Positions 2,455 to 28,520 of a stretch of DNA of 36,739 bases are shown in pieces. The notes beneath the pieces were generated by a model. That model was not told where the DNA came from. It did not search any database and was given only the letters and a program-made list of their open reading frames with translations. The stretch's first letter is position 1. Every line of letters starts with the position of its first letter. A program made the position numbers and the translations under genes. This stretch comes from a virus, in IMG/VR virus record IMGVR_UViG_3300001349_000042, positions 1 through 36,739 of that record; one strand, given 5' to 3'.

Positions 2455-2455
2455 C

Positions 2456-7818: not shown

Positions 7819-7821
7819 AAA

Positions 7822-8604
7822 ATGAATACATCTAACATATCTGTTATTGAAGAGAAAAATTCTGTAAAATCTGAATATGATTATATGAATTTGATTGCCA
7901 AGATATGCCATGCAAACCTAAAAAATTCAGACTCTGTGTGTGATTATCTTGAAGGAAGAGGAATAACAGAAGATTGTATCGACAAGTACAAGATAGGTTT
8001 CTTTCCTCAGAGCTTGGGAACTCTCAAGAGATATGTCCCTGAAGATTATCTCTTGAGAAAGTGTATATTGAAAAGCCCATATCACAGCGATTTTAAAGAT
8101 TTTCAAAGGCTTATCATACCCATATACAATGAGCATGATGAAGCCGTAGGTATTGTTGGAAGATGTACTTCTGATATTAACTTTAAAATGTTAAATATTC
8201 CGAAATATAAAAATAGTTCTTTTAAAAAGAGCAATGTTCTGTTTGGTTTGAATTTAGCATATGAAGAAATATTAAAGAAAGATAGGGTGTTTATTGTGGA
8301 AGGATACCTGGATCACGTAGCTATGACTAAAAATGGAATAAAAGAATGTGTTGCTCTTGGTGGAACTGCCTTCTCTGGAGGGCATCTTGTAAAGCTGCTA
8401 AGACTTACTAATAATTTGTATTTTATTTATGATAGTGACGAATCTGGTCAAATAACTGCATCTAGAGTAAAAGGGAAGTATGATAGTAATATCCTGAACA
8501 TGCACTTTTTAAAAGGGCCAGATGACATAAAAGATGTTGATGAGTTTTTTAAAAAGTATAAAAGAGCGGATTTCGGAAGAAAGTTTAAAAAGTTTAATCC
8601 ATAG
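7822..8604 (+). CDS. dnaG: DnaG-type primase catalytic core (Toprim), minimal
   Basis: This would synthesise RNA primers at the phage fork. The DnaG core is recognisable: CDYLEGRGIT (the YL..RGI motif, about 40-49), RLIIPIYNEHDEAVGIVGR (96-114), PKYKNSSFKKSNVLFGL (127-143, matching KYLNSPET..LYGL), and the Toprim residues E160 (VEGYLD), D204 and D206 (IYDSDESG), then GPDDIKDVDEFF (232-243). At 260 residues it lacks both the N-terminal zinc-binding domain and the C-terminal helicase-interaction domain of cellular DnaG (about 580-600 residues). The start is ATG 7822, with GAAGGGG upstream. The upstream cysteine-rich gene may compensate for the missing zinc domain (inference). Confidence 0.88.
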   Translation: MNTSNISVIEEKNSVKSEYDYMNLIAKICHANLKNSDSVCDYLEGRGITEDCIDKYKIGFFPQSLGTLKRYVPEDYLLRKCILKSPYHSDFKDFQRLIIPIYNEHDEAVGIVGRCTSDINFKMLNIPKYKNSSFKKSNVLFGLNLAYEEILKKDRVFIVEGYLDHVAMTKNGIKECVALGGTAFSGGHLVKLLRLTNNLYFIYDSDESGQITASRVKGKYDSNILNMHFLKGPDDIKDVDEFFKKYKRADFGRKFKKFNP

Positions 8605-8616
8605 ACGGAGAGAGTT

Positions 8617-9081
8617 GTGTCTAAGTCGAAAAAATATCAATATAAAATAGTGGAAGTTAAGTTTGATCAAACATATTTAAATAACTTCCCCGAAGAAAGA
8701 GGGATGGGCCACATACTAGAAGAGTCTTCTCCTTCAGAAGAAATGGTTTTAATGAGAAAAGAGCTGGCAGATGAGTTATATAATATGATTCACAGTAATT
8801 CTTTAACCGACCACCAAAGAACCGTGCTTCTTATGAGGGTAGAGGGGCAGACTCAGAATGCAATCGCCCAACACCTGGGGATAACTCAAAGCGCGGTACA
8901 TAAAGCTTTGCACGGAAACATTGATTATAAGAATGATAAGAAGAGATATGGCGGAGTTTATAAAAAATTAAAAAAACAATGCGCTGTAAATCCCAAAATA
9001 AAAGAAATCTTAAAAAGAATAGATGAGTTTAAAAGAATTAAGCATATGGGCGATGATGACGAAGAACCCTCGCCATTATAA
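8617..9081 (+). CDS. sigma-70 region 4-like HTH protein
   Basis: This is a 154-residue DNA-binding protein. Residues about 60-95 (LTDHQRTVLLMRVEGQTQNA, then IAQHLGITQSAVHKAL) read as the region 4 helix-turn-helix of sigma factors, which binds -35 elements. There is no visible region 2 for the -10 box or core binding, so it is not a complete sigma factor. A basic helical C-terminal part ends in an acidic tail. The start is GTG 8617, with GGAGAGAG just upstream. It is the last gene before the virion block, a natural place for a late-gene transcription regulator. A terminase-small-subunit-like HTH is an alternative reading. Confidence 0.75.
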   Translation: MSKSKKYQYKIVEVKFDQTYLNNFPEERGMGHILEESSPSEEMVLMRKELADELYNMIHSNSLTDHQRTVLLMRVEGQTQNAIAQHLGITQSAVHKALHGNIDYKNDKKRYGGVYKKLKKQCAVNPKIKEILKRIDEFKRIKHMGDDDEEPSPL

Positions 9082-9151
9082 TCTATTACTTTGAGTGTTA
9101 AATATAGATGTCTATTAATAAGAAAGCAAAAACTATATAGAGGGGTGTTTT

Positions 9152-9628
9152 GTGAATGAGTTAGATAAGACTTTGGTAAAATTTTTCAAAGACAAGTCAG
9201 AGAATCTGGGTGACAAGGATAGAATTCGCGTAACAGAGGATCTCGGAATGAGAAAAGTTGCCTTTGATATGTATAAAGTATATAACGATCATTATGACTG
9301 CCTATGGAAGCTTGAGGGTGTTGGCGATGAACAGTTTTTAGTCAGAGCATCTGACCCTAAGTATGATTATTCTAATCAAGGAGACTGGAATCTCTCAAGC
9401 GACTACGAAGGTCGAAATATTACCCTTATGTACAAAAGCACTCCAATAGAGCGGTTTGCCTCTTCTGAGTTTGGTTTTGACAGAGACAATTTGAATATGT
9501 TTAAGTCTGCTCTTCAGGAGCAATTGGAAGACGAACTTTTCGTAAGAGATGTATTGGCTGGACAGCCTCAAGATAAGTTTAACTCAATAACAAGTACATA
9601 TCCAGAACTTAAAAAATATTTCAAATAG
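9152..9628 (+). CDS. hypothetical protein, first gene of the virion block
   Basis: I do not recognise a family. The protein has 158 residues, is charged, and mixes alpha and beta. A central stretch (about 60-105, GDEQFLVRASDPKYDY) looks like a small beta-rich domain, and the C-terminal third is helical. The start is GTG at 9152, preceded by GAGGGG at 9140-9145; the ATG at 9156 is in another frame. It lies 9 bases before the next gene and is probably co-transcribed with it. Confidence 0.7.
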   Translation: MNELDKTLVKFFKDKSENLGDKDRIRVTEDLGMRKVAFDMYKVYNDHYDCLWKLEGVGDEQFLVRASDPKYDYSNQGDWNLSSDYEGRNITLMYKSTPIERFASSEFGFDRDNLNMFKSALQEQLEDELFVRDVLAGQPQDKFNSITSTYPELKKYFK

Positions 9629-9637
9629 GAAAATAAG

Positions 9638-11197
9638 ATGTCATTGGAAAAATTAATTAAAAGCGCAAAAGCGCTGACCTCGAGATTAGATAGTGGTAAG
9701 GATTTCCCTACGAAATACGTAGCTGGTATTTTATCAAAGGAAGCTGATCTCAACCCTAGCGATATACTTATAAATACAATGAGAGATATTGTTATCAAGA
9801 GATCTTCTGTGCAAAACTTTATTTCTCAAAAAGAGATCGGGCAGCTGTACGGAACTCTGGTTAATTCTTGTGGCGGAGAAAACGCTACCGTTTTTAAGTC
9901 AAAGATGGCGGGTCTTCTTCTTCCGCACGAGAAAGAGCCTGTCGAGCTTAAAAGAGCGAACGCTTCTCATATAAGAGGCGGAGAGCAGCACGTAAAGACT
10001 CTTCAAGAGTACGATACTGGTCTCGAAAAGATGGCCGATGAGTTTGCTGGCGTGTTTTCTTTAAATAAAAAATCTGCATTTTCTGGATACTCGAATGATA
10101 CTGGAAGCAGGGCTGAGAAATTTGCCAAGGTTCAGCTTGATTCTTTTAGGATTTTCCCAAAGAACTTAAAAGTTGTTGCAGAGAATGAGCACTTTATATT
10201 ATGTAGAGCATCTTTTGAAACAAAATCTTTCAGAGAAGTTTCTATAGATATTCCCGTTCAAGTATCAGGAGGGGTTCCCAAACTCCCAGATCACTTTATT
10301 TCGGATAATGGACTAGAGAAGCTGTCCAAAGAAAATGTTTTGGTCGCATTAAAGTCAAAGGAAGAAGGGAAAAAGTTTGACGCCAGATCAAGATTTGCAG
10401 AAGAAAGACCTACCGACTCGATTAAGGTTGAGAATGTTACTGCCCCTAAAGAGCTTTCATATCTGACTGACATTGAAGATAGAATTATTGTTTCTAGCTC
10501 TAAATATACTTTTGATCAAGTAAATGGAGCAAGAGGTGTTCTGAACAGAGAGTTGAGCTCTGCGGGAATTACCTGTCAACTTAAAGTTGCAAATATTAAC
10601 GATAAAGGTGTTATATTTTCTTCAAAGATTGGAAATAATTCCTTTGAGTTCCCAGTTGAGTTTTCGAATGGAAGACCTTTAATGCCTTCTATTTTCATTA
10701 CAAGTAATTCGAAATATGACTTCAATAGTTCTAACATAAGAAAGGTTGCTGGTAATCAAATTACAAAGGAAGCCTCTAGAATTAATCTCAGTAAGCAATC
10801 TTACAACAATATGTCCTACCATCAGCTTATGAACGAGATGATTTGTTCTGTTTCGGACAAAAACTTTATGGGTGCTGAGGATGCATTACTCTCCATTCAG
10901 AATAAGTTTGATGATACGCAGATAGTTCATGCGGTTCAAAAATATGCAAGTCTTCTTAAGACAGCAGGCATGAATGAAGAGAAAGAGACTATGATTAAGC
11001 AAGCGGTGCAGAGAGGAGATCTGATAAGAACCCCTACATCTCTAGATCTTTACTCTCCTAGATTTGGACTTCCACTTTCAAAGTTGGCATTTGACGAAGA
11101 CGGAAGGCTAACTCCTCTATTCAGAATAAGTCAAGCTAAGAATCAAAAAGATTCAGAGGTGCTTGGCATATCCTCGTACCAAATAAAATTAACGTAA
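9638..11197 (+). CDS. hypothetical protein with internal duplicated domain
   Basis: This 519-residue protein of unknown function is probably virion-associated, judging by its place in the head block. Two similar beta-rich segments are visible: residues about 172-236 (NLKVVAENEHFILCRASFET, later IDIPVQVSGGVPKLPDHFIS) and about 309-372 (QLKVANINDKGVIFSSKIGN, then FEFPVEFSNGRPLMPSIFIT). Both share a LKV...V/ILxxxF..PV...G.P.LP..FI pattern, so they look like an ancient duplication. The C-terminus contains a short helical stretch (KYASLLKTAGMNEEKETMIK) resembling the K-A-x-x-L...G helical motif seen in other genes here. There is no signal peptide. The start has AGGAAAA upstream. Confidence 0.75.
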   Translation: MSLEKLIKSAKALTSRLDSGKDFPTKYVAGILSKEADLNPSDILINTMRDIVIKRSSVQNFISQKEIGQLYGTLVNSCGGENATVFKSKMAGLLLPHEKEPVELKRANASHIRGGEQHVKTLQEYDTGLEKMADEFAGVFSLNKKSAFSGYSNDTGSRAEKFAKVQLDSFRIFPKNLKVVAENEHFILCRASFETKSFREVSIDIPVQVSGGVPKLPDHFISDNGLEKLSKENVLVALKSKEEGKKFDARSRFAEERPTDSIKVENVTAPKELSYLTDIEDRIIVSSSKYTFDQVNGARGVLNRELSSAGITCQLKVANINDKGVIFSSKIGNNSFEFPVEFSNGRPLMPSIFITSNSKYDFNSSNIRKVAGNQITKEASRINLSKQSYNNMSYHQLMNEMICSVSDKNFMGAEDALLSIQNKFDDTQIVHAVQKYASLLKTAGMNEEKETMIKQAVQRGDLIRTPTSLDLYSPRFGLPLSKLAFDEDGRLTPLFRISQAKNQKDSEVLGISSYQIKLT

Positions 11198-11215
11198 TAT
11201 TTGGAGAAATTTAAA

Positions 11216-11695
11216 ATGAAAGAAGCTAGAATAAGAAGATTGATGAAGTTAAAAAAGTCAGCGCAACAGTCGACCGATGGAATTTTAAGTACACATCCTG
11301 TTAATCTTGAAACCAGAGATATGAAAAGAAGAACCACTATTGAAAATTCTCAGATTGACGATGGCAAGTATAATTTACAGTTTGATAATAAAAAGTATAA
11401 GCCTCCAGAAGGCTATAGAGAGTCATCTAGTTTAAGTACTCGTTATGTTCCAAATATGCCAGGAGTTCAAGCTCAAAGAGTTCCTGGAACGAGTAATGTT
11501 TTTAAAGATCCTCATAGTGGTAAAGTTTTCGACTACAATGAAGGTTTTAGCGAAGACAATGTTGTTTATAATCCTCAAGGCGTACAGTATCAAACCTCTC
11601 ATATGAATTCTCTAGCCAGTCAGGCTTCAGACAGCCTGAGAAGTAGCAAGTTGTACAAAGAATCAAGAATAATTGACGTATTATTCAAAAAATAA
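11216..11695 (+). CDS. hypothetical basic protein
   Basis: This 159-residue protein has no recognised family. It has a very basic, helical N-terminus (KEARIRRLMKLKKSAQ) and a low-complexity, Ser/Tyr/Pro/Gln-rich, probably extended body. The start at ATG 11216 is favoured by TTGGAGA at 11201-11207; a TTG at 11201 would place that site inside the gene. The basic head and flexible body suggest a DNA- or capsid-binding structural peptide, but this is inference. A strong terminator follows. Confidence 0.7.
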   Translation: MKEARIRRLMKLKKSAQQSTDGILSTHPVNLETRDMKRRTTIENSQIDDGKYNLQFDNKKYKPPEGYRESSSLSTRYVPNMPGVQAQRVPGTSNVFKDPHSGKVFDYNEGFSEDNVVYNPQGVQYQTSHMNSLASQASDSLRSSKLYKESRIIDVLFKK

Positions 11696-11718
11696 AATTG
11701 ATAGACTTATAACAAACT

Positions 11719-11754
11719 AAGCGCAAGTATTATGTACTAATACTTGCGCTTTTT
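11719..11754 (+). terminator. intrinsic terminator with perfect 14-bp stem
   Basis: The arms 11719-11732 and 11738-11751 are perfectly complementary (core GCGCAAGTATTA), with a 5-base TGTAC loop and a short T tract (11750-11754). The hairpin separates the gene ending at 11695 from the one starting at 11768. Its left arm and loop also contain the AGTATTAT motif (11726-11733), so the site may combine termination with initiation. Confidence 0.85.
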
Positions 11755-11767
11755 ATATGAGGTAAAT

Positions 11768-12460
11768 ATGTCTAAGAAAATATTAAATCATCCCGATAAA
11801 GACGAAATTGTAAAAAAGTTGGTCGAGGGTGAGAGCGTCAGATCCATAGAGGAGTGGCTTAAGAAAAGACATTCTGATTCAAAAAAACACGTTACATATA
11901 TAACTCTTCATAAGTTTAGAAAAGATTATCTCAATATCCAAGGAGAGTACCTGAGCGATATTCAAGAAATAAGAAAAGCTAGGGATGATGCGGATAAGGA
12001 AGAGGAGCGTAAAGAAATAGTTAAAAATAGTTCTCCGTATAAGGAGAAGTTAGAAGAGATTGTTGATGCGGAAATAGATGTTACAAGAAGACTCTTAGAG
12101 ATGGAGGCTTTGGTTAATTCAAGATTGGAATATTATTTCAATGTTCTTCAGTCAGGAGGTTCGTTAAGAGAGGATAAGATCTTCATAGAATATATAAACA
12201 TCTTGAGAAGCATTATGGCCGATTGGAAAAAGTTTATTGAGGGTCATTCTGACAATAAAATTGAGCACAATGTTAATGTCAATGTAATGATGCAACAGGT
12301 TACTATTATTAAAAATGTTGTAAGTGATGTTTTGCTGGAAATGGACTCTGAGAAGATTCCAGTATTTATTGATAAGTTAAACCAAAAGATGGGGCTAGTT
12401 GACTATGAAAAAGAATCAGAAAAATTATCAATTGAAAAGGTTGACGATTTCGGATCTTAA
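11768..12460 (+). CDS. HTH/coiled-coil protein, possible terminase small subunit
   Basis: This is a 230-residue helical protein. Residues 8-55 (KDEIVKKLVEGESVRSIEEW, then HVTYITLHKFRKDYL) resemble the N-terminal helix-turn-helix of small terminase or resolvase-like DNA-binding domains. A long charged coiled coil (60-160) and a helical C-terminus follow. That layout and a place about 4.4 kb ahead of the large terminase fit a small terminase subunit that recognises phage DNA for packaging. These proteins diverge fast, so the call is tentative. The start at ATG 11768 is chosen over an upstream TTG inside the terminator hairpin, because TGAGG lies at 11758-11762. Confidence 0.65.
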   Translation: MSKKILNHPDKDEIVKKLVEGESVRSIEEWLKKRHSDSKKHVTYITLHKFRKDYLNIQGEYLSDIQEIRKARDDADKEEERKEIVKNSSPYKEKLEEIVDAEIDVTRRLLEMEALVNSRLEYYFNVLQSGGSLREDKIFIEYINILRSIMADWKKFIEGHSDNKIEHNVNVNVMMQQVTIIKNVVSDVLLEMDSEKIPVFIDKLNQKMGLVDYEKESEKLSIEKVDDFGS

Positions 12461-12689
12461 TAGCTTTATTTCTTTTAGAGATTGGTGCTATGAAAACATT
12501 CCCTCTTACGAAGAAAACTATTTTAGAAATAATACCAAGAAGATCAAAATAGATGATGCCCAGAAAATACTTTCATATTTAAGAGATAGTATTATAAAGG
12601 GGAATGTTAAAGAGTTTAGAGAAAAAATAAAAGAATTGCTTAGGAGGCTTGAAGTCTATGAAAAAGATGGAAAAGAAATCATACCTTAA
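12405..12689 (+). CDS. small hypothetical helical protein
   Basis: This small basic protein of about 94 residues (KIKIDDAQKILSYLRDSIIK and following) looks fully helical. It overlaps the previous gene by 56 bases in another frame and the next by 32. ATG 12405 has GGGG at 12391-12394, but TTG codons at 12432 and 12441 are alternative starts that would shorten the overlap. No function is recognised. The double overlap argues for translational coupling. The coding call is less secure than for its neighbours. Confidence 0.55.
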   Translation: MKKNQKNYQLKRLTISDLNSFISFRDWCYENIPSYEENYFRNNTKKIKIDDAQKILSYLRDSIIKGNVKEFREKIKELLRRLEVYEKDGKEIIP

Positions 12690-13833
12690 TATGAGTTCAC
12701 CAGATGGTGAGAAAAGATACGATTTGGAAGTTTGGTATAATTGCGAACAAAAAGTTGCAATGTACATGAACGATGGTTACTCTTTTGATGATTCTGTCAA
12801 GGTTGCAGCGAAAACAAATATGACTTCAGAAGAAGAGAAGTACGATTTTTATAATTGGATCAAAAACAGATTTAACTATAAGAAGGCAAGCCTTGACAAA
12901 GAGGCGGTGCATTATTTTTCTCCAATCGCAGATCAGTCGGACTGGAGAAAAGACGATCTTTCCGAAAAGACTTATGAAGCAAAAGAAAAGTTTAATCATT
13001 CCAAAGATAGTGGTGACGCGACTTATAAAAAGCTTAGAAGATATCTCCTAGGACTAACAAGGCTTCTTTTGGAAAATGAAAATATCTCAACAGAAGATTA
13101 CGGAGAAGCTCACAAATATATTGGAATGCTGACAAAGGTGTTTAGAAGCTCCATGTCCAAATCCGCAAAATCCAATTATGCCTTTAATATTGCAAATAAA
13201 ATGTTAAAGCTCTCCAACAATCAGGTTGGAGGAGGCCTTAGGAAATTTGCACAAGAGGTTGCTGAAGATGCTGGAGTTGTTACTGACAGCTCACCGCCTG
13301 ACGCTCCAACAGCCACAGCCGCTCCCCCAAGGCCTATTAATCCTGGACAGACCGAAGACCCTATGACTGATGGAGTGGCGAGAACAGAGCCTGTTGGTCC
13401 TCAGGATGAAGCGCTAGGCGAGAGTAAAGATGAGGCTCCAAGAGAGAGTAAACCTACAGATGGAATTCCCTCTTCTGATGAAGTAAAGCCTATTAGGTTT
13501 GAGGATATAAAAGTTCCAGATCACGATGACAGGTATGACGATCTTGCAGGAGACATAAATGTAGGTGATGCTGCAAATAAACTTGATGAGATCGCAGGTA
13601 TGTTGGCTGACAGAAGAGTTATTAGGCTTTTGGCAGAGTTTGATATTATGCTTGATAGACTTGGAATCGCAAGTATGTTTCCAGAGCTTGCAGAGTCCCA
13701 ATCAAAACTTATTGATTCTTTTAGCTATGCTCTTACAAGGGTTACCAAAATGATGGGTCAGCTTGCAAATGCGCAACAGGCAATCTCCAGCACTGAAAAG
13801 GTAGTTGTTCCAGGCTCAGACGTAGAGGGATAA
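12658..13833 (+). CDS. hypothetical protein, helical with Pro/Ala-rich linker
   Basis: This 391-residue protein has no recognised family. It has a helical N-terminal domain (about 1-205), then a low-complexity linker rich in Pro, Ala, Asp, Glu and Thr (about 220-285), then a helical C-terminal domain (about 300-380). ATG 12658 is chosen because AGGAGG at 12642-12647 is 10 bases upstream; a TTG at 12649 would be too close to it. The two-domain-plus-linker build and the location fit a structural or assembly protein. An AGTATTAT motif (12588-12595) lies 62 bases before the start, inside the previous gene. Confidence 0.75.
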   Translation: MKKMEKKSYLNMSSPDGEKRYDLEVWYNCEQKVAMYMNDGYSFDDSVKVAAKTNMTSEEEKYDFYNWIKNRFNYKKASLDKEAVHYFSPIADQSDWRKDDLSEKTYEAKEKFNHSKDSGDATYKKLRRYLLGLTRLLLENENISTEDYGEAHKYIGMLTKVFRSSMSKSAKSNYAFNIANKMLKLSNNQVGGGLRKFAQEVAEDAGVVTDSSPPDAPTATAAPPRPINPGQTEDPMTDGVARTEPVGPQDEALGESKDEAPRESKPTDGIPSSDEVKPIRFEDIKVPDHDDRYDDLAGDINVGDAANKLDEIAGMLADRRVIRLLAEFDIMLDRLGIASMFPELAESQSKLIDSFSYALTRVTKMMGQLANAQQAISSTEKVVVPGSDVEG

Positions 13834-13837
13834 TGAT

Positions 13838-14584
13838 ATGTTAAACCTTAGAGAAGAAGATAGACTTGTCGTTCTTTCTATATCGGATTGCTTTAAGAAA
13901 AATAAACTGGAAAAACCATATCTTGTTGGAGGCGTGGTTAGGGATTATTTTCTAAAGAGAGAGTATGGCGACATAGATATAACAAATAATTCTGGGGGGC
14001 AAAGCTTCCTGGGTGGGTTGTTCTTCGCAAGGGAAAACCTAAAAGATTTTAAAATAAGCAAAAAAGGCTATGTTACTATAATATCCGAAGACCACTCTAA
14101 GATAGATTTCTCTTCGGGTATGCTTGCTATTAACTCTGAAGTTGATCTATCAGAGACCGAATCTAGAAACTTTACTATAAATTCAATATTATATGACATA
14201 CAGGAAGATAAAATTGTAGACGAGTTTGGAGGCCTTGACGATATAAAGAATAGGCTGATAAGAACAATTATGCCTGCAAGCGCATCCTTAATGGAGAATG
14301 AAAATAGAGTAATCAAGTGTGTTGAGCTTGCAACAAAATTTAACTTTGCTATTGACGAAGAGATAGTTTCTTTCTATAAGGATAATAAACCTTACATAAA
14401 GTATTGTTTTGAAAAAAATAAAAAATATTTATTCGGATCTTTTGCAAAAGCGATGGATCATGATGAAGATTACTTTTTAAATATTGTCTTTAACCTTGAT
14501 ATTTTTAAAATAATTCCTCTTGCGGGAAAGTATAAAGAGCTGTTAATAAGGAAAAAGCTTTTAGGTAGGTATATAAATGACTGA
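13838..14584 (+). CDS. class II CCA-adding / poly(A) polymerase-type nucleotidyltransferase
   Basis: This adds nucleotides to an RNA or other 3' end; in cells the family completes the CCA end of tRNA. The head domain is clear: LVGGVVRD (29-36), catalytic GDIDIT with D45 and D47, RNFTIN (110-115), DEFGGLDDI (128-136), and ENENRVIKCVELATKF (153-168), which matches the E.P.R..R...FA motif. Length 248 is shorter than full CCA enzymes (about 370-450), so the body and tail domains are reduced. It lies in the middle of virion genes and there is no tRNA gene in the window, which makes its substrate a puzzle. The start follows AGAGGGA. Its end overlaps the next gene by 8 bases. Confidence 0.88.
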   Translation: MLNLREEDRLVVLSISDCFKKNKLEKPYLVGGVVRDYFLKREYGDIDITNNSGGQSFLGGLFFARENLKDFKISKKGYVTIISEDHSKIDFSSGMLAINSEVDLSETESRNFTINSILYDIQEDKIVDEFGGLDDIKNRLIRTIMPASASLMENENRVIKCVELATKFNFAIDEEIVSFYKDNKPYIKYCFEKNKKYLFGSFAKAMDHDEDYFLNIVFNLDIFKIIPLAGKYKELLIRKKLLGRYIND

Positions 14585-14885
14585 TAATAGAATCACCAAA
14601 TTATACAATTATCTTAAAGACAGATTATCAGATCAAGAGAAAGAAATGTTTAGGGAAATCATGAATGATGATCCAGAAGATAAAAAAGAGGTAGAGCTAA
14701 AGCCTTTCGATCCGATCTCTTCTGGAGGAAGCAGTCCTGATTATCCTAGATTTTATGCTAATAATTTACAAGATAGTACACCCGTTTTCGAAGATGGGAA
14801 CCCATTTGACGCCTATAAGGATGACAACCATGTCAATCAGTATAGGGGATTAAACAATTTTACAAACAGCTTTACTACAAACTAA
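14577..14885 (+). CDS. small hypothetical acidic protein
   Basis: This 102-residue protein is not recognised. A short helical N-terminus (ITKLYNYLKDRLSDQEKEMF) precedes an acidic, Pro/Gly/Asn-rich, probably disordered body. It overlaps the nucleotidyltransferase by 8 bases, and AGGTAGG upstream gives a Shine-Dalgarno. It could be a small virion or assembly factor, based only on context. Confidence 0.65.
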   Translation: MTDNRITKLYNYLKDRLSDQEKEMFREIMNDDPEDKKEVELKPFDPISSGGSSPDYPRFYANNLQDSTPVFEDGNPFDAYKDDNHVNQYRGLNNFTNSFTTN

Positions 14886-14905
14886 AGTTAGAATTTGGAG
14901 CAAAC

Positions 14906-15880
14906 ATGCGAAATAAAAGAGCTTTTGATATGGCTTTACCAGAACTTGAAGCAGAATCCTTATCTTCTTTTTTTGAAGACTATAAGGATAAGTCCTTAAA
15001 AGATTTAAAAGATATGATGAACGATGATATCGACGAAATGCAAGAAGACATAGAGGAGGGTGTAGGTCAGAAAACTCCCAAGTTCGACGCTGCTCAAAAG
15101 GATCTCAACAAAGAGTTTGAAGAGATAATGGAAATGGCGGGTGATGACACAAAACTTAAAGACATCATGATTCCTGGCTCAGAAATATCCATCTCGGAAT
15201 TCGGATCTGATGATATGAAGGATGACGAGGAAAGAGAAAGAACTTATGAGGATGACAGATATCTCCCAGACTTTCCAAGATACGTAAATTTTCAATACCC
15301 TGGAAAAATACCAACTCATGACGGAAGCAGCCTTCTTGGATGTGAAAGAGCGATTGCCTGGCTTCAGAGACTTGCAAATGAAATATCTACATCTATAAGA
15401 AATGATATTGAGGGTCATTTAAATGAAAGTATTGATGATTTAAGCTCAATACAGGAGAAAGTTCTTACCGATATATTCTATCTAAAAGATCATATGAAAA
15501 AATTAAAGCAAATGTTGCCAGAAAAGACTAAATCTTCAAATCTTCTAAGAGGCTCCTTTGACATTTTAAAGACTGCGAGCACTCCAAGCAATATGGTAAT
15601 TTCCATTACTCCCTTCATAAGAGCTATATCTGGAATACTAATAAACTCAACAGTTTCTGCAGGGAAGCCCTTTGAAGATGTCTATGAGTATCTACTAAAC
15701 AAGTATGATATTAACGAAAGAGAGCAGCTTGAAATACTTCAAACATTGATGGATATGGGTCAGCCTATATTTAAAGATAGAGGTACAATGCCCTCCCTTG
15801 AGTCTGCAGATAAGAAAGAGTTAAAATCTTCTGAAGAAGAACTTCAGGGTGTTGACTTTATAACCAACTACTTCGCTTAG
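14906..15880 (+). CDS. hypothetical acidic helical protein
   Basis: This 324-residue protein of unknown family has a strongly acidic first third (many D/E around 20-120), then a helical region (about 150-215) and a hydrophobic-patched helical region (about 225-290, NMVISITPFIRAISGILINS) that could be membrane- or protein-interacting. It shows no clear signal peptide and no recognised catalytic motif. The start is ATG 14906 with TTGGAG at 14895-14900. The head-block context suggests an assembly or scaffold-like role. Confidence 0.72.
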   Translation: MRNKRAFDMALPELEAESLSSFFEDYKDKSLKDLKDMMNDDIDEMQEDIEEGVGQKTPKFDAAQKDLNKEFEEIMEMAGDDTKLKDIMIPGSEISISEFGSDDMKDDEERERTYEDDRYLPDFPRYVNFQYPGKIPTHDGSSLLGCERAIAWLQRLANEISTSIRNDIEGHLNESIDDLSSIQEKVLTDIFYLKDHMKKLKQMLPEKTKSSNLLRGSFDILKTASTPSNMVISITPFIRAISGILINSTVSAGKPFEDVYEYLLNKYDINEREQLEILQTLMDMGQPIFKDRGTMPSLESADKKELKSSEEELQGVDFITNYFA

Positions 15881-15894
15881 TTTACAGGTGCAAA

Positions 15895-16260
15895 ATGAAC
15901 ATAGATCTCGCAAAAAAAATAATAAAAATTGCAAATGAGCTTGATGCTGCTGGAAGCTCTAAGTTCGCCGACAAAATAGACTCAATTATAAAAGAGTCTA
16001 TGGAAGAGGGCGGACTTACCGAAGAGGGCTTGAAAGCCGTTGATAATGTATTTCAAGACGATGGTGACCAAGTTTTTATATTTCTACAAGAAGCAAAAAG
16101 AATCAGGTCAGAGTTTTTAAAATATGCAATCGAAGAGGGCATGGCTAGTGAGAGCTTCTCAGAAGATGAGGTTATGATGTCAATTGCAAGGAAGGGAGAT
16201 TACGGATATGAAGATGCCGTAGCTAAAGGCAACTATGTTGTAATATATTGCGCAATATAA
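15895..16260 (+). CDS. small protein with helical KIA..LD..G...AD.ID motif
   Basis: This is a 121-residue protein of unknown function. Its N-terminus, KIIKIANELDAAGSSKFADK followed by IDSII, is a helix-turn-helix-like hairpin motif that also appears twice in the gene at 28526. The rest is acidic and helical, ending in a short hydrophobic strand (YVVIYCAI). The Shine-Dalgarno is weak (AGGTG). Presence in the head block suggests a virion or assembly part. A DNA-binding reading of the motif is not supported, because it is acidic. Confidence 0.68.
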   Translation: MNIDLAKKIIKIANELDAAGSSKFADKIDSIIKESMEEGGLTEEGLKAVDNVFQDDGDQVFIFLQEAKRIRSEFLKYAIEEGMASESFSEDEVMMSIARKGDYGYEDAVAKGNYVVIYCAI

Positions 16261-16278
16261 AAATTAGGAGATTGTGAT

Positions 16279-16851
16279 ATGAAAGTAACAAGAATAGGCG
16301 AAAAAGAATCTTACAATATAACATCAGATTGGATTAGAGATTTTGCAAGCACTATAACGAAAGAAAGTAACTACTTGGATAGAGTTAAAGAAAGAAAAGA
16401 TCTTAGGGTAGAAGAAAAGTTTGCAAATATTGAAGATAAGATGCATGATATAAAAAACAGGATAGGTTTCTTGACAGGTGCGAACAATGCAATTAACAAG
16501 TCGGCATCTGATTGTGATTGCGGATCTTGTGAAGCTTGCTCTATGAAAGAAAAGTGCACTTGTGGGTCCTGCGAATCTTGCAACTCTACAAAGATTTTAG
16601 AATTTATAGTATATGTTCTTAATTACATGAAGAGTGCTCTGTCTGAGAACCCATCTATGGTTTATGAGAAACTTCTTTCTAAGTGTAGAAATGAAATACC
16701 GCAATTTTACTCTTTTGAGGGGAATATGTGCCCAGACAAGTTGAAGAAACATGTGGGAGATATGAGAAAGCCTTCTGAATTCAGACAGGTTGAGTTTATA
16801 CCTTCAGAGGGAATATATGATTTTGAAGAAGATGATAACGACAAGGGCTAA
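16279..16851 (+). CDS. protein with duplicated CxCGxCxxC metal-binding cluster
   Basis: This 190-residue protein has no recognised family. Eight cysteines sit in two copies of one pattern: C79, C81, C84, C87 (CDCGSCEAC) and C93, C95, C98, C101 (CTCGSCESC), nine residues of pattern each with five between. Such spacing could bind two zinc ions or an iron-sulfur cluster. A basic coiled-coil-like region (about 35-62) lies before it and a helical domain with two further cysteines after it. It ends 30 bases before the large terminase. The start has AGGAG at 16266-16270. Confidence 0.75.
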   Translation: MKVTRIGEKESYNITSDWIRDFASTITKESNYLDRVKERKDLRVEEKFANIEDKMHDIKNRIGFLTGANNAINKSASDCDCGSCEACSMKEKCTCGSCESCNSTKILEFIVYVLNYMKSALSENPSMVYEKLLSKCRNEIPQFYSFEGNMCPDKLKKHVGDMRKPSEFRQVEFIPSEGIYDFEEDDNDKG

Positions 16852-16881
16852 TTTTTTTTCTTCGAAGAGTAGTATGTCTGT

Positions 16882-18648
16882 ATGAGTAAAGAATTTAAAG
16901 ATGAAGTAGATTTATTTGATGAGGTATCGAAAAGATTTCAGGATTTAGATCCTGCGATGTTTATAGAAAACAATCTCACTATAGATGGAGAGCCGTTTAA
17001 AATTCTTGGTAATGGATGGCGCTTTATGGTCGATATATATAGATATATCGCCTTGCAGGCTCCGAAGGCTAACGGAAAGCCTATAGTTATAAAAAAAGGA
17101 AGACAGGTCGGAGCTTCTGTTATGGCGGGAGGTCTGGACCTTTACTTTACAAACTCTGGCCTATTCTCAAAGCCGCCAGCCAGAGTCGTCCATCTGTTTC
17201 CAGCATTAGCCCAAGTAAAGAAGTTCTCTCAAGATAAATTAGAAGGGATGATAAGAACCGCTAAAGATGACTTCATAAACGATAACAAGCTTAAATCTCA
17301 AAACGCTGTAGATAATCTTACCATGAAGCAGTTTGAAACTGGAACGCTTTGGATAGAATCTGTAGGTTCTGATGCCGACAGAATAAGAGGTATGACTGTA
17401 GACTTCGGCTTCTTTGATGAAGTTCAAGATATGAATCCGACAGCAATAGGTAATGCTACAAAAATACTTACAGCCGCAAAGTACGGGCCTGTAGGTAAGG
17501 GCGTGCAGGTTTTTTTTGGAACTCCAAAAGAGAGGGGGTCTCATTTTAATACCATATGGGAAATGTCAGATAAAAGATATTATCATCTGGGATGTGAAAA
17601 GTGTGACCAAACGTACCCCTTCTACCTTACCGAAGATGATAGGTGGAGAAAGATATGGGTTGAGAAGTTTACAATAGAGTGTCCTCTTTGTCAGCACAGG
17701 CAGCATAAAACCGTTGCAATAGAAAAAGGGAAGTGGGTTGTGACTGGATCAAAGAATGCCAAGTATGTTGGATTTCAGGTGAATCAACTATATATACCTT
17801 ACTTTTCAAAAGAAAATATTCTTGATCTAATGCCTGAAAATAACCCTGCGCAAACAGAAAGAGTTTGGAATAATGAGGTAATCGGAGAGTTTTACTCTGG
17901 ATCAGGGATGCCTCTGACAAAGGCGGACATACACGATAAGTGTAAGGATGAAGATAGATCTTTCTCTCAAACTATAGATACTAGAATAAAAACATCCTAT
18001 ATGGGCGTAGACTGGGGCGGAAAGGATGATACTAAGGGTTCTGTTGGAGGACAGTCTTATTCTTGCGTTGTTGTAATATCCGTAACTCACGATGGTATAA
18101 TTTTAGTTGAGCATGCTCATAAGTTGAGACAGAATAATTTTGAATATAAGAAAGAAACAATAAAAGAAGTGTATAGAAGATTTGGAATAAAAAGAGGAGT
18201 TTCTGACTGGTTCTTTGGTCAGGATGTTGTTCATGACATACAGCTTATGTATGGGGAAAGATTTCTTGGAGCTCAGGGTAGTGCGTCGCTAGTGAAGCCT
18301 ATGAAGTATAGAGAAGAAGAACTTATCGTGTCTTATAATAAAGACTTGATGATTGAGGAGATTTTTGATTTATTTAAGAAGGGTAAGATAAGAATGCCGT
18401 GGAAATCTTATGAGAAGATAGAGTGGCTTATAGATCACTGCACCTCTATGGAATTAAAACAAAGAGTTGTCGGTGGACAGCCAATAAAAACATATGTTAA
18501 GGGGTCATTACCTAATGATGGACTTATGGCACTTATGTATGCTTATATGGCATATAAATTTGACCTTACAAAGGGATTTACCGTAAGACCTGGTCATGTT
18601 GACAAGCCAAACTTTCCTGTTCCCGTTATAGCGAAAGTTAGACTTTAA
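16882..18648 (+). CDS. terL: terminase large subunit
   Basis: This is the ATP-driven DNA packaging motor and headful nuclease. The ATPase has a variant Walker A, KGRQVGAS (72-79), Walker B ending FFDE (177-180), and a coupling motif region GTPKERGS (213-220). A zinc-ribbon insertion has C238, C241, C267 and C270, as in GpA-like large terminases. The nuclease domain starts YMGVDWGG with D377 and ends NDGLMALMYAYMA with a further acidic residue. Length 588 is typical. The start at ATG 16882 has only a weak GAAGAG site; an ATG at 16874 is in another frame. A 64-base gap precedes the portal gene. Confidence 0.94.
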   Translation: MSKEFKDEVDLFDEVSKRFQDLDPAMFIENNLTIDGEPFKILGNGWRFMVDIYRYIALQAPKANGKPIVIKKGRQVGASVMAGGLDLYFTNSGLFSKPPARVVHLFPALAQVKKFSQDKLEGMIRTAKDDFINDNKLKSQNAVDNLTMKQFETGTLWIESVGSDADRIRGMTVDFGFFDEVQDMNPTAIGNATKILTAAKYGPVGKGVQVFFGTPKERGSHFNTIWEMSDKRYYHLGCEKCDQTYPFYLTEDDRWRKIWVEKFTIECPLCQHRQHKTVAIEKGKWVVTGSKNAKYVGFQVNQLYIPYFSKENILDLMPENNPAQTERVWNNEVIGEFYSGSGMPLTKADIHDKCKDEDRSFSQTIDTRIKTSYMGVDWGGKDDTKGSVGGQSYSCVVVISVTHDGIILVEHAHKLRQNNFEYKKETIKEVYRRFGIKRGVSDWFFGQDVVHDIQLMYGERFLGAQGSASLVKPMKYREEELIVSYNKDLMIEEIFDLFKKGKIRMPWKSYEKIEWLIDHCTSMELKQRVVGGQPIKTYVKGSLPNDGLMALMYAYMAYKFDLTKGFTVRPGHVDKPNFPVPVIAKVRL

Positions 18649-18660
18649 CTTTTTCTATAT

Positions 18661-18680
18661 AGTATTATATAGTATTATAT
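18661..18680 (+). repeat. tandem AGTATTATAT repeat, possible promoter element
   Basis: Two exact adjacent copies of AGTATTATAT lie in the short gap before the portal gene. Each holds the TATTAT box and the AG in front of it that recur in other intergenic regions of the structural block. No -35-like box is evident. Confidence 0.45.
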
Positions 18681-18712
18681 TAATTAAATGATTTAAGTTG
18701 TCGGGGAAGATT

Positions 18713-21514
18713 ATGAGAAGAACAAGTAGACCAAACAATCCTGGAAAAAAGTTTGATGCTCTATCTGATGTTAGAAGGGCTGAGATTAGTGACGCAATAA
18801 CCAAAAAGGCTGTTGCTGATGAGGATAGTATTGCGTCAAAAACTCCATCCATCGCACACTCCCCAAAGTACAGGCAGGATTCTTTAAATAAAATCGGATC
18901 TATAGTATCTCCAATGGGCCAGCCTAGTAGCTCTTCTCAGACTGATAGAATGGGTCCAGAAGTTTACTCTCCACTGTTTCAGCTGGCTAACTTAAATCTT
19001 CCTAGAGATAGAGTAACAATGAATGCGTGGAATCGCATTTACTACGATACCCATCCTATTGTTAGAAACGCTATAAATCTTCACGCCTCTTTTCCTATAT
19101 CAAAAATAAATATCTCATGCTCTTCTAAGAAAGTTCAGCAGTTTTTTGAGGATATGGCAGAAAGAATAGATCTATATTCTGTAATATATGGTGCTGGACT
19201 TGAGTTTTGGAAATTAGGTGAAACTTTCCCATATTCTGAGCTAGATGAGTCTAACGGTACTTGGTCTAGGATATCCATTTTAAATCCAGATTATGTTCAT
19301 GTCAAAAAGTCAATAATTGGCAATCAAACAATTGCATCTTTAAGACCTGATGCGTCATTGCAAAGATTGATAAATTCAACTGCCCCTTCTGATGTTGCTC
19401 TGAGAAGATATATACCAGAGCACATAATTGATAATGTAAGAAGAGGAAAAAATATCCCCCTAGATCCTTTTAATGTTTCTCATTTAAAACTTTTAAGCTC
19501 TCCTTACGATATAAGAGGAACATCAATTATAGTTTCTTGTTATAAAGATATCATGCTCTATGATAAGTTAAGAGAAAGTAAGTTTGCTCAGGCAGACGGA
19601 ATGATAAATCCACTAACCTTGGTAAAACTTGGTGGTAATGATTACAGACCATCTCAATCTGACATAGAAGCTTTTAGGCATATCTTGGAAGAAGCTCAAT
19701 ACGACAAAGATTTCAAGCTAGTAACTCATGCAGATGTTACTATCGAAAGAAATGGTGCTGGTTCGGGAGTTATGGATATAGGCTCTGACATAACTCATAT
19801 AACGGATAATCTTTACGCAGGACTTATGGTTCCAAAATCTCTAATGGACCAGGAGGGCGCTTGCGTTCCTGTTAAGAATACCGAAATACTCGTTGAGGGT
19901 AAGGGCTTTATATCTTTTGATATGTTTCAAGATGGAGATAAGATTGCAACTATTAATCCTAATAATCATGAGTTAGAGTATCAGTCACCTACAAATAAGA
20001 CAGACATCTTGTTTTCAGGACTTATGTATTCTATTACAAATGATATGAATGACTTTGAATGCACAGACTTTCATGACATTCTTTTGAGTAGAGATGGAGG
20101 ATGCACATTCGAGAAAGAAAAAGCTATTAGTGTATTCTCTGATAATGATTTACTTTCTGGTGACACCTTTAGTTCAAAGTACAGAGGCAATGTTAGATTT
20201 TTAAATTTCGCAAGCGAGTTTAATGGTGAGAAGAAAGATTTCGTCTTAATTCCAGATAAAGAGCAATACTCTAAGGTTGAGTTTATCAGAAAAGTTGGAA
20301 TTACTAACTTTTGTAAGTTTTTAGGATATTACTTATCAGAAGGTCACCTTGTCCGAAGAAGAGACCCAAAGAGAAATCATAATAACCCCTGCGCTATCAC
20401 AATTACTCAGCAAGAGAGCAGTAAAGGGTTTGAGGCGATGTCTGATCTTTTCTCTAAGTTTGAATATAAATCAACGATTAATTGTGAGAATAGCAATAAA
20501 AGATGTTGGAGAGTATCAAACACTAAGTTGTCGGAATATATTCTAAGTAACTTCGGAGAGAGAAGCGAAGGTAAGTATATTGCAGAGTGGGTTAAAAAGC
20601 TTGATAGAGCTAATTTAAGGACTCTTATTGAGGCAATGTGCCTTGGTGATGGTTCGGTCAACAAGAATAGCTCTTCTGGCTCTTTTAAGTACTTTACTGT
20701 GTCTGGTAGAATGGCAGATGACTTTCAGGAGATATGCTTTAAAGCTGGATACTCATCTAAATTAAAAAGAGTAAAGCGAGACGAAACGCGAAAAGATATT
20801 TACCATATATCTGTGTTTAAGAATGAAGAGTCAAAGAGGGGTCGTAATCGTAAGTTTAAAACTCTAGTTAGACCTAGTGATGTAAGTGTTAATTACGTAG
20901 AAAAAGAAAGAGTTTTCTGCTTTGATGTTCCGAATCATATATTTGTAACTAGAAAAGATGGAAAGATAGGTGTTCATGGTAACTCATACGCGTCTTCTTC
21001 CGTTGGATTGGAAGTTTTAAGGCAGCGCTATGATATTTTTAGAAATATGATGAAAAAATGGCTAGAGAGAAAGATTTTTGCACCTATATGCGAAATACAA
21101 GACTTTTTTGAATATAAGAATGGAGAGAAAAGACTTCTGGTTCCTCAAATTGACTTTAATCATATGAATCTTTATGATGTCGGGGAATATGTAAACTCTA
21201 TAACTCCATTCGTAAGTAACAAGCAGGTTTCCTTACAGACCGTTTATAGGTCTTTAGGCTTGTCGTATGAAGAAGAAAAGAGAAGATTAAGAGAGGAGGC
21301 TGTTAGTGAGGCTATCTTCGCAAAAGAGCAACAGATATTATCGGAAATGAGACTATCTGAACTAGAAAAACTAGACCCTAATAAGTCTATACCTGAGCCC
21401 GCACGAACAACATCTTCAGAGGATGATGATCAAGGCGGAGGAATACCAGGAGTAGATATGGGTGGCGGTCAAGGCGGACCAGACGGAAGCTCACCAGGAG
21501 GTCTTCTAGGATGA
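18713..21514 (+). CDS. portal protein containing an intein
   Basis: This makes the dodecameric portal at the capsid vertex through which DNA enters. Recognisable extein features are the N-terminal part (RVTMNAWNRIYYDTHPIVRN, then PYDIRGTSII and YDKLRESKFAQADG) and, after splicing, SLMDQEGA joined to SYASSSVGLEVLRQRYDIFR, which is the usual portal sequence. The full frame is 933 codons; removing the 374-residue intein leaves 559 residues, a normal portal size. The C-terminus is Gly-rich and low complexity. ATG 18713 is chosen because GGGGAAG at 18703-18709 is well placed; TTG 18698 lies upstream of it. The stop overlaps the next start (ATGA). Confidence 0.9.
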   Translation: MRRTSRPNNPGKKFDALSDVRRAEISDAITKKAVADEDSIASKTPSIAHSPKYRQDSLNKIGSIVSPMGQPSSSSQTDRMGPEVYSPLFQLANLNLPRDRVTMNAWNRIYYDTHPIVRNAINLHASFPISKINISCSSKKVQQFFEDMAERIDLYSVIYGAGLEFWKLGETFPYSELDESNGTWSRISILNPDYVHVKKSIIGNQTIASLRPDASLQRLINSTAPSDVALRRYIPEHIIDNVRRGKNIPLDPFNVSHLKLLSSPYDIRGTSIIVSCYKDIMLYDKLRESKFAQADGMINPLTLVKLGGNDYRPSQSDIEAFRHILEEAQYDKDFKLVTHADVTIERNGAGSGVMDIGSDITHITDNLYAGLMVPKSLMDQEGACVPVKNTEILVEGKGFISFDMFQDGDKIATINPNNHELEYQSPTNKTDILFSGLMYSITNDMNDFECTDFHDILLSRDGGCTFEKEKAISVFSDNDLLSGDTFSSKYRGNVRFLNFASEFNGEKKDFVLIPDKEQYSKVEFIRKVGITNFCKFLGYYLSEGHLVRRRDPKRNHNNPCAITITQQESSKGFEAMSDLFSKFEYKSTINCENSNKRCWRVSNTKLSEYILSNFGERSEGKYIAEWVKKLDRANLRTLIEAMCLGDGSVNKNSSSGSFKYFTVSGRMADDFQEICFKAGYSSKLKRVKRDETRKDIYHISVFKNEESKRGRNRKFKTLVRPSDVSVNYVEKERVFCFDVPNHIFVTRKDGKIGVHGNSYASSSVGLEVLRQRYDIFRNMMKKWLERKIFAPICEIQDFFEYKNGEKRLLVPQIDFNHMNLYDVGEYVNSITPFVSNKQVSLQTVYRSLGLSYEEEKRRLREEAVSEAIFAKEQQILSEMRLSELEKLDPNKSIPEPARTTSSEDDDQGGGIPGVDMGGGQGGPDGSSPGGLLG
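19862..20983 (+). mobile_element. in-frame intein with LAGLIDADG homing endonuclease
   Basis: This is a 374-residue self-splicing element within the portal, residues 384-757 from ATG 18713. It starts with Cys (CVPVKNTEILV) and ends VHGN before Ser+1, the residues needed for splicing. Block B holds T-x-x-H (CTDFHDILL). Two LAGLIDADG motifs are present: LGYYLSEG (intein residues 154-161) and LIEAMCLGDG (255-264), each with its acidic residue, so the homing endonuclease may be active. The C-terminal block FCFDVPNHIFV is present. The penultimate residue is Gly rather than His, a known but less common variant. The frame is open throughout, so this is an intein and not an intron. Confidence 0.93.
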
Positions 21515-25388: not shown

Positions 25389-28300
25389 ATGATTATTAAA
25401 AAGTCAAATAACTCCCTTGGCTCAAAAGTTCTAAGTAAAGATAAGGTACGAGAAGTTCTGGCTGACGAAAATATCGTCAGAAGAATGTCTAAGGTTGCGA
25501 AATCTATAAAGAGCATTTCTCCGAGATCTGACGACTTTCTTTACTTCAGCATTATATTTATGAAGGCTGCGGAGGCAAGCATTCTTAGTGAAGGCGGGTC
25601 TATAAAGAAGCTCGCAAACGGAGAAGATGCATGGGGCTATTTTGATAATGATTGGAATTGGCATGGAAATGTCAAGCCTCACAGAAATAATAACTCAGAT
25701 ATTTTTCCAGAATCAGAACTTAAGATTGCTGCCAAGGAGTGGATCGGACTTCCTTTATGCAGGGATCACGAGTCATCTTCTGTTGATGGAATCAGAGGTA
25801 TCATCTTAGATACACACTATGATGAGAAATTCAAGCAAATTGTTGGCTTGTGTGCACTAGACAAAGCTAACTATCCTGATTTGGCAAGCAAAGTTGAGAA
25901 GGGTTTGGTTAGGTACGGAAGTATGGGTACTGCCGTAGAGACGAGTATTTGTACTGAGTGTGGAAATAAGGCGAAGATTGCAAGTGAATATTGCAATCAT
26001 GTTAAGGATAGGACGGGACACGGAGAAGTAAATGTTGGTTTGAAGCCGATAGAGTACAGTCTTGTTGTTCAGCCCGCAGAGCCTGGCGCAATACTTTTAA
26101 AATGTATTGCTTCGCTCAATGGGTACAAATCACAGTTTACAAGTGCTGGAGTATCAAACGTAGATACTAAAATTGCATCTTTGAATGTTTCTCAAGCGAA
26201 ACATTTAGAGTTGATAATGAAAACAGCATGTAAAGACGACTCCTGTTCTTTGGACAAGAGGAATGAGATAATAAATGAGTTTTTTGATAAGAATGTAAAA
26301 GTTGCGTTTAAGGCTGACGAGTCTTTTGATCAGGTTAGTGTAGATGAGTTGAGAAACATAGTAGAGTCGGCAAAAGTATTGGACGAAATGGGCAAACACT
26401 CTCTTGCTGAAGAAGTTTTAAGTAGATTAAACCTTGGTTCTGAAGGTGAAGTAAAAGTAGACTCCGAAAGTAACTATTTGAGCGATCCATCTAACTTCCA
26501 AGAGACTATTTCTAATTCTAATAGTGATACTGAAGATTACTTTAGAGAAGATTTTCCGCAGCCAGGTAGCGATACCGTTAGCTTGGCTTCTTTAAACAAA
26601 AATAATATTAAATTAAGAACTAAAAATGCGTTGGAGGAATTAATGCGTAATAGCAAATTAGAGAAGAGAGCTCAGGCAAGAAGAAAACTAGCATACATGC
26701 AAGGTGGATCTGAAGGTAGAGAGCCTAATACTTTTAAAGAAGAAAAGTACACATTTGATAATGATAAGCAAATGAAGCAAACTGGCAATCTCGGTGGAGA
26801 TAAGGGTCTTGCTCCTGGCGATGCAGAGCTTAAGGCAAAGTTGAGCAGAGCTGCCATTCAAGAAAGAGCTATGAAGAGAATGGCTTATATGCAAGGCGGA
26901 TCTGAAGGTAGAGAGCCTAATACTTTTAAAGAAGAAAAGTATACATTTGATAATGACAAGCAAATGAAGCAAACTGGTAATCTTGGCGGAGATAAGGGCC
27001 TAGCTCCTGGCGATGCAGAGCTTAAGGCAAAGTTAAGCAGAGCCGCTTTAGCAAGACCTTTATCGAAGACTTCTGCATATAGAGGCCCTAGTCTTTCAAC
27101 AAAGCTTAAGCTTATTAGAAGAGCATCTGGAGCTTTGGACAAGAAAAACTGCATATTTGAAGTTTTCGCAGGAGGAGACAGAGTTTTTGCAGAAAGAGTT
27201 GGAAGAATTTTTGGTCCAGATATTGAAAGCAATTGGGATTGGGTTTCTTCTAAAGAGTATGGGAAAGAAGTCTGCAAAACGGTTAGAGCGGAAGGTTTAA
27301 ATAAAACCATAAGCATTCTTAAGAATGCTCAAGAGCTACCAGAGATGGAAGAGCCAGAGATGGGAGAAATGGAAGATATGCCTCCTATGATGGAAGATAT
27401 GGGTGCACCCGAAGGTTCGGAACTTCCAGAAGTTCAAGATCTTGGAGAAGAAAATGATGATGGTCTTGAGCAAGAAGAATCTGAAGAACATGCGTCAACT
27501 CAAATTGATGCAAAGATCGTAACAATAGAAGAAATCTTGGCTGAGATGAAAGATTTAGTTCAAGAACTTGAGGCTGATCAGGGTAGAGACGTTACCGTTA
27601 ATGTTAATACCTTTGGAGATGAGCCTGTAGAGTCCGATGGAGAAATCGAGTCTCTTGCTAGAGATTTAGTTGGCAGAATTAAGACTTCATCGACAGAGTT
27701 GGACGAAAGTGCTGACGAAATGGCAATGGTTTCTGAGACTTACGACAATATTGGTAAAATTTCTTCTGCGGACAGAAAAAGATTCACAAAGCTTGCTGGA
27801 GAAGCGGTTGATGATTGTAACAGACTAGTCGGAGAGGCAAAAGCTCTTCTTGCTGTCGGGACACAAATCAAAACAGCTATGGCAAGAACAAGAATCAACA
27901 AGGTTGCTTCTAAAGACTCAGACGAAGGCGTTCAAGGTCTTATATCTCAGGCTATGGACTTGAGAAAGACAAGAAGAGAAGCTCTTCTTAAGCAAGCAGA
28001 GTTAAAATATAGAGCTGCATCTTACGAAGAAGAGAAGGCTGAAGACCACGCTAAAGATCATGCTGAAGACCACGCAGAAGATCACGCTGAAGATTGTGCC
28101 GAAGACCACGCTGGAGACAAAGCTGAAGATGCAATGCATCATGAAAAAGAAGCCTCCTATAAGAAAGTAATTTCAGAAAAATTTGAGCAGAAAAAAGTTG
28201 CTCAGGAAAGAGAAAATTACAAAATAAAGCTTAGACGAGCTTATGATGTTGCCTTAGAAATGCAAACAAAAGGTTTGATTAGTCAAACTAAAACTGCTTT

Positions 28301-28520
28301 GGACGATCAGGTAGATAACATTATGGGATTTGACGATAGAGCTTTTGAAAGCTTTAAAAAGAGTATTGGAAATACCAAAAACGTTTCTTATATGAAAGTA
28401 GCTTCTGACCTTGGCGGTGTTAACATTGGCCTTAAAGAAACTAATGACTTCGCATCAACTCAAACATCATCAAGAATGAATGCAAACTTGCTTTCAGGAA
28501 TGTGGGACTACAAGAGGTAA
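25389..28520 (+). CDS. prohead protease fused to scaffold-like region
   Basis: This 1043-residue protein probably cleaves and scaffolds the capsid precursor. The N-terminal domain (about 80-240) resembles gp21-type prohead serine proteases of large phages: CRDHESS (H127) in a strand context, RYGSMGTAVE (S178, the S-x-G motif), and a zinc-like insertion with C188, C191, C202 and H204, then GLKPIEYSLV. A long acidic, helical remainder looks like scaffold: two identical 55-residue repeats (435-489, 499-553), an acidic Met/Pro/Glu segment (about 660-710), coiled-coil stretches, and a His/Glu/Asp repeat (about 884-915). Protease-scaffold fusions are known in phages. Protease identity is inferred from motifs; the catalytic third residue is not clear. 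The start has AGG at 25376-25378 and a 66-base gap upstream. Confidence 0.8.
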   Translation: MIIKKSNNSLGSKVLSKDKVREVLADENIVRRMSKVAKSIKSISPRSDDFLYFSIIFMKAAEASILSEGGSIKKLANGEDAWGYFDNDWNWHGNVKPHRNNNSDIFPESELKIAAKEWIGLPLCRDHESSSVDGIRGIILDTHYDEKFKQIVGLCALDKANYPDLASKVEKGLVRYGSMGTAVETSICTECGNKAKIASEYCNHVKDRTGHGEVNVGLKPIEYSLVVQPAEPGAILLKCIASLNGYKSQFTSAGVSNVDTKIASLNVSQAKHLELIMKTACKDDSCSLDKRNEIINEFFDKNVKVAFKADESFDQVSVDELRNIVESAKVLDEMGKHSLAEEVLSRLNLGSEGEVKVDSESNYLSDPSNFQETISNSNSDTEDYFREDFPQPGSDTVSLASLNKNNIKLRTKNALEELMRNSKLEKRAQARRKLAYMQGGSEGREPNTFKEEKYTFDNDKQMKQTGNLGGDKGLAPGDAELKAKLSRAAIQERAMKRMAYMQGGSEGREPNTFKEEKYTFDNDKQMKQTGNLGGDKGLAPGDAELKAKLSRAALARPLSKTSAYRGPSLSTKLKLIRRASGALDKKNCIFEVFAGGDRVFAERVGRIFGPDIESNWDWVSSKEYGKEVCKTVRAEGLNKTISILKNAQELPEMEEPEMGEMEDMPPMMEDMGAPEGSELPEVQDLGEENDDGLEQEESEEHASTQIDAKIVTIEEILAEMKDLVQELEADQGRDVTVNVNTFGDEPVESDGEIESLARDLVGRIKTSSTELDESADEMAMVSETYDNIGKISSADRKRFTKLAGEAVDDCNRLVGEAKALLAVGTQIKTAMARTRINKVASKDSDEGVQGLISQAMDLRKTRREALLKQAELKYRAASYEEEKAEDHAKDHAEDHAEDHAEDCAEDHAGDKAEDAMHHEKEASYKKVISEKFEQKKVAQERENYKIKLRRAYDVALEMQTKGLISQTKTALDDQVDNIMGFDDRAFESFKKSIGNTKNVSYMKVASDLGGVNIGLKETNDFASTQTSSRMNANLLSGMWDYKR
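26691..27047 (+). repeat. two direct 165-bp repeats encoding identical 55 residues
   Basis: Copies at 26691-26855 and 26883-27047 (period 192 bases) encode the same 55 residues, beginning AYMQGGSEGREP and ending AKLSRAA. Codon by codon they differ at 13 places, all third positions and all silent. The 9-residue spacer after copy 1 (IQERAMKRM) resembles the sequence before it. Confidence 0.95.
28038..28133 (+). repeat. eight-fold 12-bp acidic/His repeat
   Basis: Eight imperfect copies of a 12-base unit encode A-E-D-H-like tetrapeptides (AEDHAKDHAEDHAEDH and so on) near the C-terminus of the protease-scaffold protein. The length is likely to vary by slippage. The His/Asp/Glu content suggests metal binding or charge-based packing. 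Confidence 0.85.

Follow-up and report, generated by a model that had tools for sequence, protein, structure and literature searches.

The portal gene of this virus raises a question of identity: what is the 374-residue insert that interrupts it, and what would it do there? The window, by which we mean the whole 36,739-nucleotide stretch analysed, contains on its plus strand a reading frame (18698..21514) that no stop interrupts, insert included. We place its likely start at the ATG of position 18713 rather than at the TTG that the ORF list gives (18698), and this start yields a precursor of 933 residues, from which removal of the 374 would leave a spliced portal of 559 (383+176). The precursor gene, assigned through PHROG portal families, occupies 18713..21514 (+) and consists of an N-extein of 383 aa (18713..19861, +), the insert in frame (19862..20983, +) and a C-extein of 176 aa plus stop (20984..21514, +). 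We propose that the insert is very probably a class 1 intein with a LAGLIDADG homing endonuclease, spliced from the portal precursor and copied into empty portal genes.

The exteins are homologous to phage portals, and the gene adjoins that of the terminase large subunit (TerL), which lies immediately upstream (16882..18648, +; PF05876, PHROG 675) and carries no intein. The N-extein matched portal PHROG 16240 in a profile search (E=1e-41) and was 36% identical to the Bacillus phage G portal by tblastn. When the portal alignment was searched against the PDB, the sole match was SPbeta YonE (E=0.06), and megablast of window positions 1-20000 matched no phage records. Elsewhere in the window, positions 4657-6285 encode a phage GroEL-like chaperonin (PHROG 5725, E 4e-113) beside UvsX-like recombinase and primase genes, and positions 25389-28520 form an ORF of 1043 aa whose residues 107-208 match a head-maturation-protease PHROG and which also contains a tandem repeat of ~50 residues (MQGGSEGREPNTFKEEKYTFDNDKQMKQTGNLGGDKGLAPGDAELKAKLSRAA, two copies) and a EDHAEDHAEDHAED run.

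Scanning viral contigs with the N-extein, we obtained 80 portal loci. In 70 of these homologues, C-extein residue 1 follows N-extein residue 383 without any insert, and the N-extein aligns with them in one piece. They are contiguous at exactly the junction that the initial annotation had predicted, MDQEGA/SYASSS (the slash marks the insertion point), and most of them read PKALMDQE[AGS]A/TYASSSVGLE. The junction falls within a nearly invariant portal stretch and other alleles sit at the same codon, in agreement with the earlier view that a homing target lies in a highly conserved segment. Six distinct viruses have this codon occupied: that of the window, those with four other full-length types (L017; L018/L021/L023, of which L021 and L023 are identical; L029; L031) and one with a mini-intein (L037, identical to L038 and L043). 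The full-length alleles of the other viruses measure 380-381 aa and are 45-48% identical to the window intein; the mini-intein, of 172 aa, has kept the splicing halves and lost the endonuclease domain. The initial annotation had set against its own reading any homologues in which the insert lacks the Cys and Asn-Ser junctions; none turned up, as every allele at the site starts with Cys and ends in HGN before Ser or Thr.

All the motifs named at the outset are indeed present in the insert. Cys1 (TGC, 19862..19864, +), the first splicing nucleophile, and block B T-D-F-H (residues 68-71, with Thr68 and His71; 20063..20074, +) are the same in all alleles at the site. Block F (RVFCFDVPNHIFVT; 20909..20950, +) supplies Cys353 at F:4 and His359, equivalent to the block F His; the roles of these residues are assigned following PMC4031507. 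Block G, KIGVHGN (20963..20983, +), contains His372, the penultimate Gly373 and the terminal Asn374, whose AAC codon (20981-20983) is followed, in VHGN/S, by the TCA of Ser +1 (20984..20986, +), the C-extein nucleophile, which is Thr or Ser in homologues. Comparison of the alleles revealed that Cys1, Thr68, His71, Cys353, His359, His372, Gly373, Asn374 and Ser/Thr +1 are all invariant. The homing-endonuclease domain covers approximately residues ~125-335 (20234..20866, +), the part absent from the mini-intein in the alignment with L037, and is also supported by PF14528 and by Foldseek matches to I-DmoI and intein endonucleases. Its first LAGLIDADG motif, FLGYYLSEGH (20318..20347, +; LGYYLSEG within it), carries the catalytic Glu160, and its second, LIEAMCLGDGSV (20624..20659, +; including AMCLGDG), the catalytic Asp263, both acids being invariant in the full-length alleles. 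The insert matched Pfam LAGLIDADG_3 (PF14528, E=2e-8), exceeding the curated cut-off, and tblastn recovered phage relatives spanning residues 1-374 or 4-374 with E values down to 8e-20; this match and these relatives argue that the intein motifs are not there by chance. Pfam Hint/intein profiles gave no match, and a scan of genome contigs returned only weak archaeal LAGLIDADG/intein matches.

Cys1, the terminal Asn374, Ser +1, the T-x-x-H of block B and the empty homologues with exact junctions all fit class 1; the penultimate His, usual but not obligatory in that class, is Gly373 in every allele. A class 3 mechanism was ruled out by Cys1 and by the absence of the W-C-T triplet (B:12, F:4, G:5): the residue two positions past His71 is Ile/Met, and G:5 is His372. 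This anatomy gives a predicted class 1 pathway, and we infer both splicing in the cell and DNA cutting. The portal would be made as the full precursor, in which Cys1 would attack the Ala-Cys bond and the N-extein would be passed to Ser +1; cyclisation of Asn374 would then release the intein, and ligation of the exteins would give the 559-residue portal. With no penultimate His to help it, the cyclisation may be assisted by one of two other histidines, the invariant His359 of block F or His372. Splicing would let the virus retain a working portal despite the interruption of its most conserved segment. The freed intein would act as a site-specific DNA endonuclease on portal genes that lack the intein in related, co-infecting viruses; repair of the cut gene would then copy the intein in.

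An AF2 model of the intein, built on an alignment of ten relatives (six close alleles and four distant relatives), reached a mean pLDDT of 85.7 and a pTM of 0.88. An earlier model from the six close alleles only had been poor (pLDDT 63), and addition of the four distant relatives raised it to pLDDT 86. The best PDB matches of the model by Foldseek were the TliVMA intein (E 5e-16), PI-PkoII, PI-PfuI and PI-SceI, and I-DmoI was also among the matches. These full-length matches to intein structures place the model in the Hint/intein splicing fold, and the insert is predicted to share with the four best matches an overall architecture of Hint splicing domain plus LAGLIDADG endonuclease, although sequence identity in the structural alignments is just 9-14%. 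Their host genes are standard ones such as VMA, polymerase and RNR. Taken together, the alleles, the model, its structural matches and the PHROG 16240 assignment bear out the proposal of a full-length LAGLIDADG intein inside a portal gene.

To follow the intein across viruses, its state was placed on a portal tree of 65 rows, six of them occupied. At least 5 changes (gains or losses) are needed on this tree, and occupied and empty portals are close neighbours on it (L031 beside L025, L017 beside L026), with flanks of about 71-84% nucleotide identity. In the intein tree L017 pairs with L031 (96/95); the portal tree instead unites L017, L018 and L029 and leaves L031 outside (96/97). The scattered states and the conflict between the two trees indicate that the intein moves laterally, as predicted by homing; repeated loss accounts for at most part of the distribution. 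Among the full-length alleles, pN is 0.07-0.23 and pS 0.45-0.90 in both the splicing and the endonuclease parts, values that, with synonymous sites near saturation, do not translate into an exact dN/dS. Since pN is low while pS is near saturation, both parts have been under purifying selection. The only 100% copy of the window intein is in L002/L005, and L002 was rejected as an independent identical allele because, at 99.97% identity to the window over 11,122 bp, it represents the same virus; among the viral contigs scanned, we found no near-identical copy in a different virus. We therefore saw no recent homing of the window allele, and its identity of only 45-48% to the other alleles suggests that its endonuclease specificity may have drifted.

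It is conceivable, though unlikely, that the intein still splices while its endonuclease is dead, leaving it to vertical inheritance only. Endonuclease loss is known at this very site from the L037 mini-intein, and the window allele is without a near-identical copy elsewhere; however, the window allele has kept its two catalytic acids and its LAGLIDADG helices intact, the endonuclease domain is under purifying selection among full-length alleles, and the scattered distribution and tree conflict also argue against a purely vertical history.

Conditional splicing is established for some inteins, and an element that interrupts an essential segment might gate portal maturation according to redox, temperature or assembly state. 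Variants of the penultimate residue do alter splicing rates (PMC5050341), but the sole assayed phage intein of the Gly type, the RDF intein of mycobacteriophage Bethlehem, splices completely, and changing its Gly to His impairs it (PMC5050341); moreover, 70 related portal loci manage without the element, and we consider such gating improbable. Nor does the penultimate Gly, initially read as a sign of altered chemistry, by itself point to it: besides the Bethlehem result, a His at that position is missing from about 5% of functional inteins (PMC4031507), and Gly is common to every allele here and to the nearest relatives in nucleotidyltransferase genes. That the insert is a permanent extra portal domain, never removed, is hardly credible and was rejected on the empty sites and conserved junction residues: a single uninterrupted reading frame and the lineage-specific extensions that do occur in portal families would suit it, but the 70 loci without insert, joined exactly within a segment that hardly varies, the retention of Cys1, Asn374 and +1 Ser/Thr in all alleles, and the survival of precisely the splicing halves in the mini-intein do not.

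Relatives of this class 1 homing intein, found with the intein alignment, also reside in a second portal family (PF04860-type). Its site FGITATELGF/TEDAKG is occupied in five contigs (L112-L114, L133, L153), by an intein 28% identical to that of the window, and empty in 32 others; in L148, L151 and L152 a related intein sits ~ten residues before that point in the same type of portal (KMVWA/CYDD..SGN/SFGMTATELGF). L148, L151, L152 and L100-L104 carry related inteins in a PF04860-type portal, at two points close to each other. Motif comparison appears to put the sites of the window, L100 and L148 in one conserved portal segment, the insertion points of the window and L100 being seemingly about 3-4 residues out of register; no usable match came from a profile alignment between the portal families of the window and of L100. 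Further relatives were observed in an SU10-type portal (L107), ending in Gln rather than Asn (VQGQ/S), and, with host genes judged by eye, in an apparent terminase (L003, ending CGQ/S) and a ThyX-like gene on a euryarchaeal MAG contig (L154, ending CGN/C).

A second portal intein, of 405 aa, was found at GE/../CFPYAELDE (L047:3609-4823), also in L161, L162 and L163, and its C-terminal end in L029/L164; with a further intein at the window's site, beside that end at the second site, the L029 portal has two. It starts with Lys (KLSKNSMLAMSDG), ends AVHN/C, has Asp at F:4, matches PF14528 and PF14890, and lacks the WCT triplet; it falls outside the three intein classes as reviewed in PMC4031507. 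Of 1155 intein bases, just 1 distinguishes L047 from L163, against about 71-87% identity in 150-base bins of the flanks. This contrast suggests that the Lys1 intein was very recently transferred, although the L163 contig, which stops within the intein, could instead be a chimeric assembly. We put forward, as a tentative idea with somewhat long chances, that the GLMVPKSL..EGA/SYASSS segment and its counterpart FGITATELGF/TEDAKG form a recurrent homing hotspot across portal families, and that the spreading Lys1 intein of the same phage group splices outside the Cys/Ser (class 1), KlbA-type Ala1 (class 2) and WCT (class 3) schemes.

The class of phage homing inteins is known, and so is the portal gene as a host. 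The initial annotation had called a portal host less usual; the intein does lie in a portal, but portal inteins are already listed for six cluster C1 mycobacteriophages (PMC5050341). A search of the open-licence literature for the phrase 'portal protein intein' found no paper. What is new is the insertion site, the allelic series, the presence of related inteins close by in another portal family, and the Lys1 portal intein with its apparently recent transfer. The site is a third one in portals, beside the two mycobacteriophage sites inspected, and belongs to a different phage group. The natural series at one codon, with empty, full-length, diverged and endonuclease-free alleles, displays how a phage intein passes through its homing cycle. 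As splicing tools, mini-inteins that combine a penultimate Gly with portal-derived junctions could prove useful, and metagenomic portal genes with an intein can be mistaken for oversized ones.

Among known systems, the PORT inteins of cluster C1 mycobacteriophages (ET08, Cane17, JayJay) are likewise of class 1 type and lie in a phage portal gene, and by tblastn of the N-extein their host portals are distant homologues of that of the window. However, they are not in the YASSS segment: the JayJay-type intein follows Norm-portal residue 115 (HW/C..N/CRLFY), and those of ET08 and Cane17 follow residue 504 (KFS/C..HN/TLNL). The closest relatives in named phages are mostly in nucleotidyltransferase genes (Mycobacterium phage BeanWater, Pectobacterium phage DU_PP_I), with 24-26% identity over almost the whole length, and a similar insert is also present in Escherichia virus TH47 and Prevotella phages Lak. 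The nucleotidyltransferase-gene inteins resemble the window intein in Cys1, the Cys at F:4 and a terminal H-G-N/S, T or C, but differ in host gene and site and lack the block F His of the window family. The Bethlehem gp51 RDF intein is also a class 1 phage intein with a penultimate Gly like that of the window, in a different host protein (PMC5050341).
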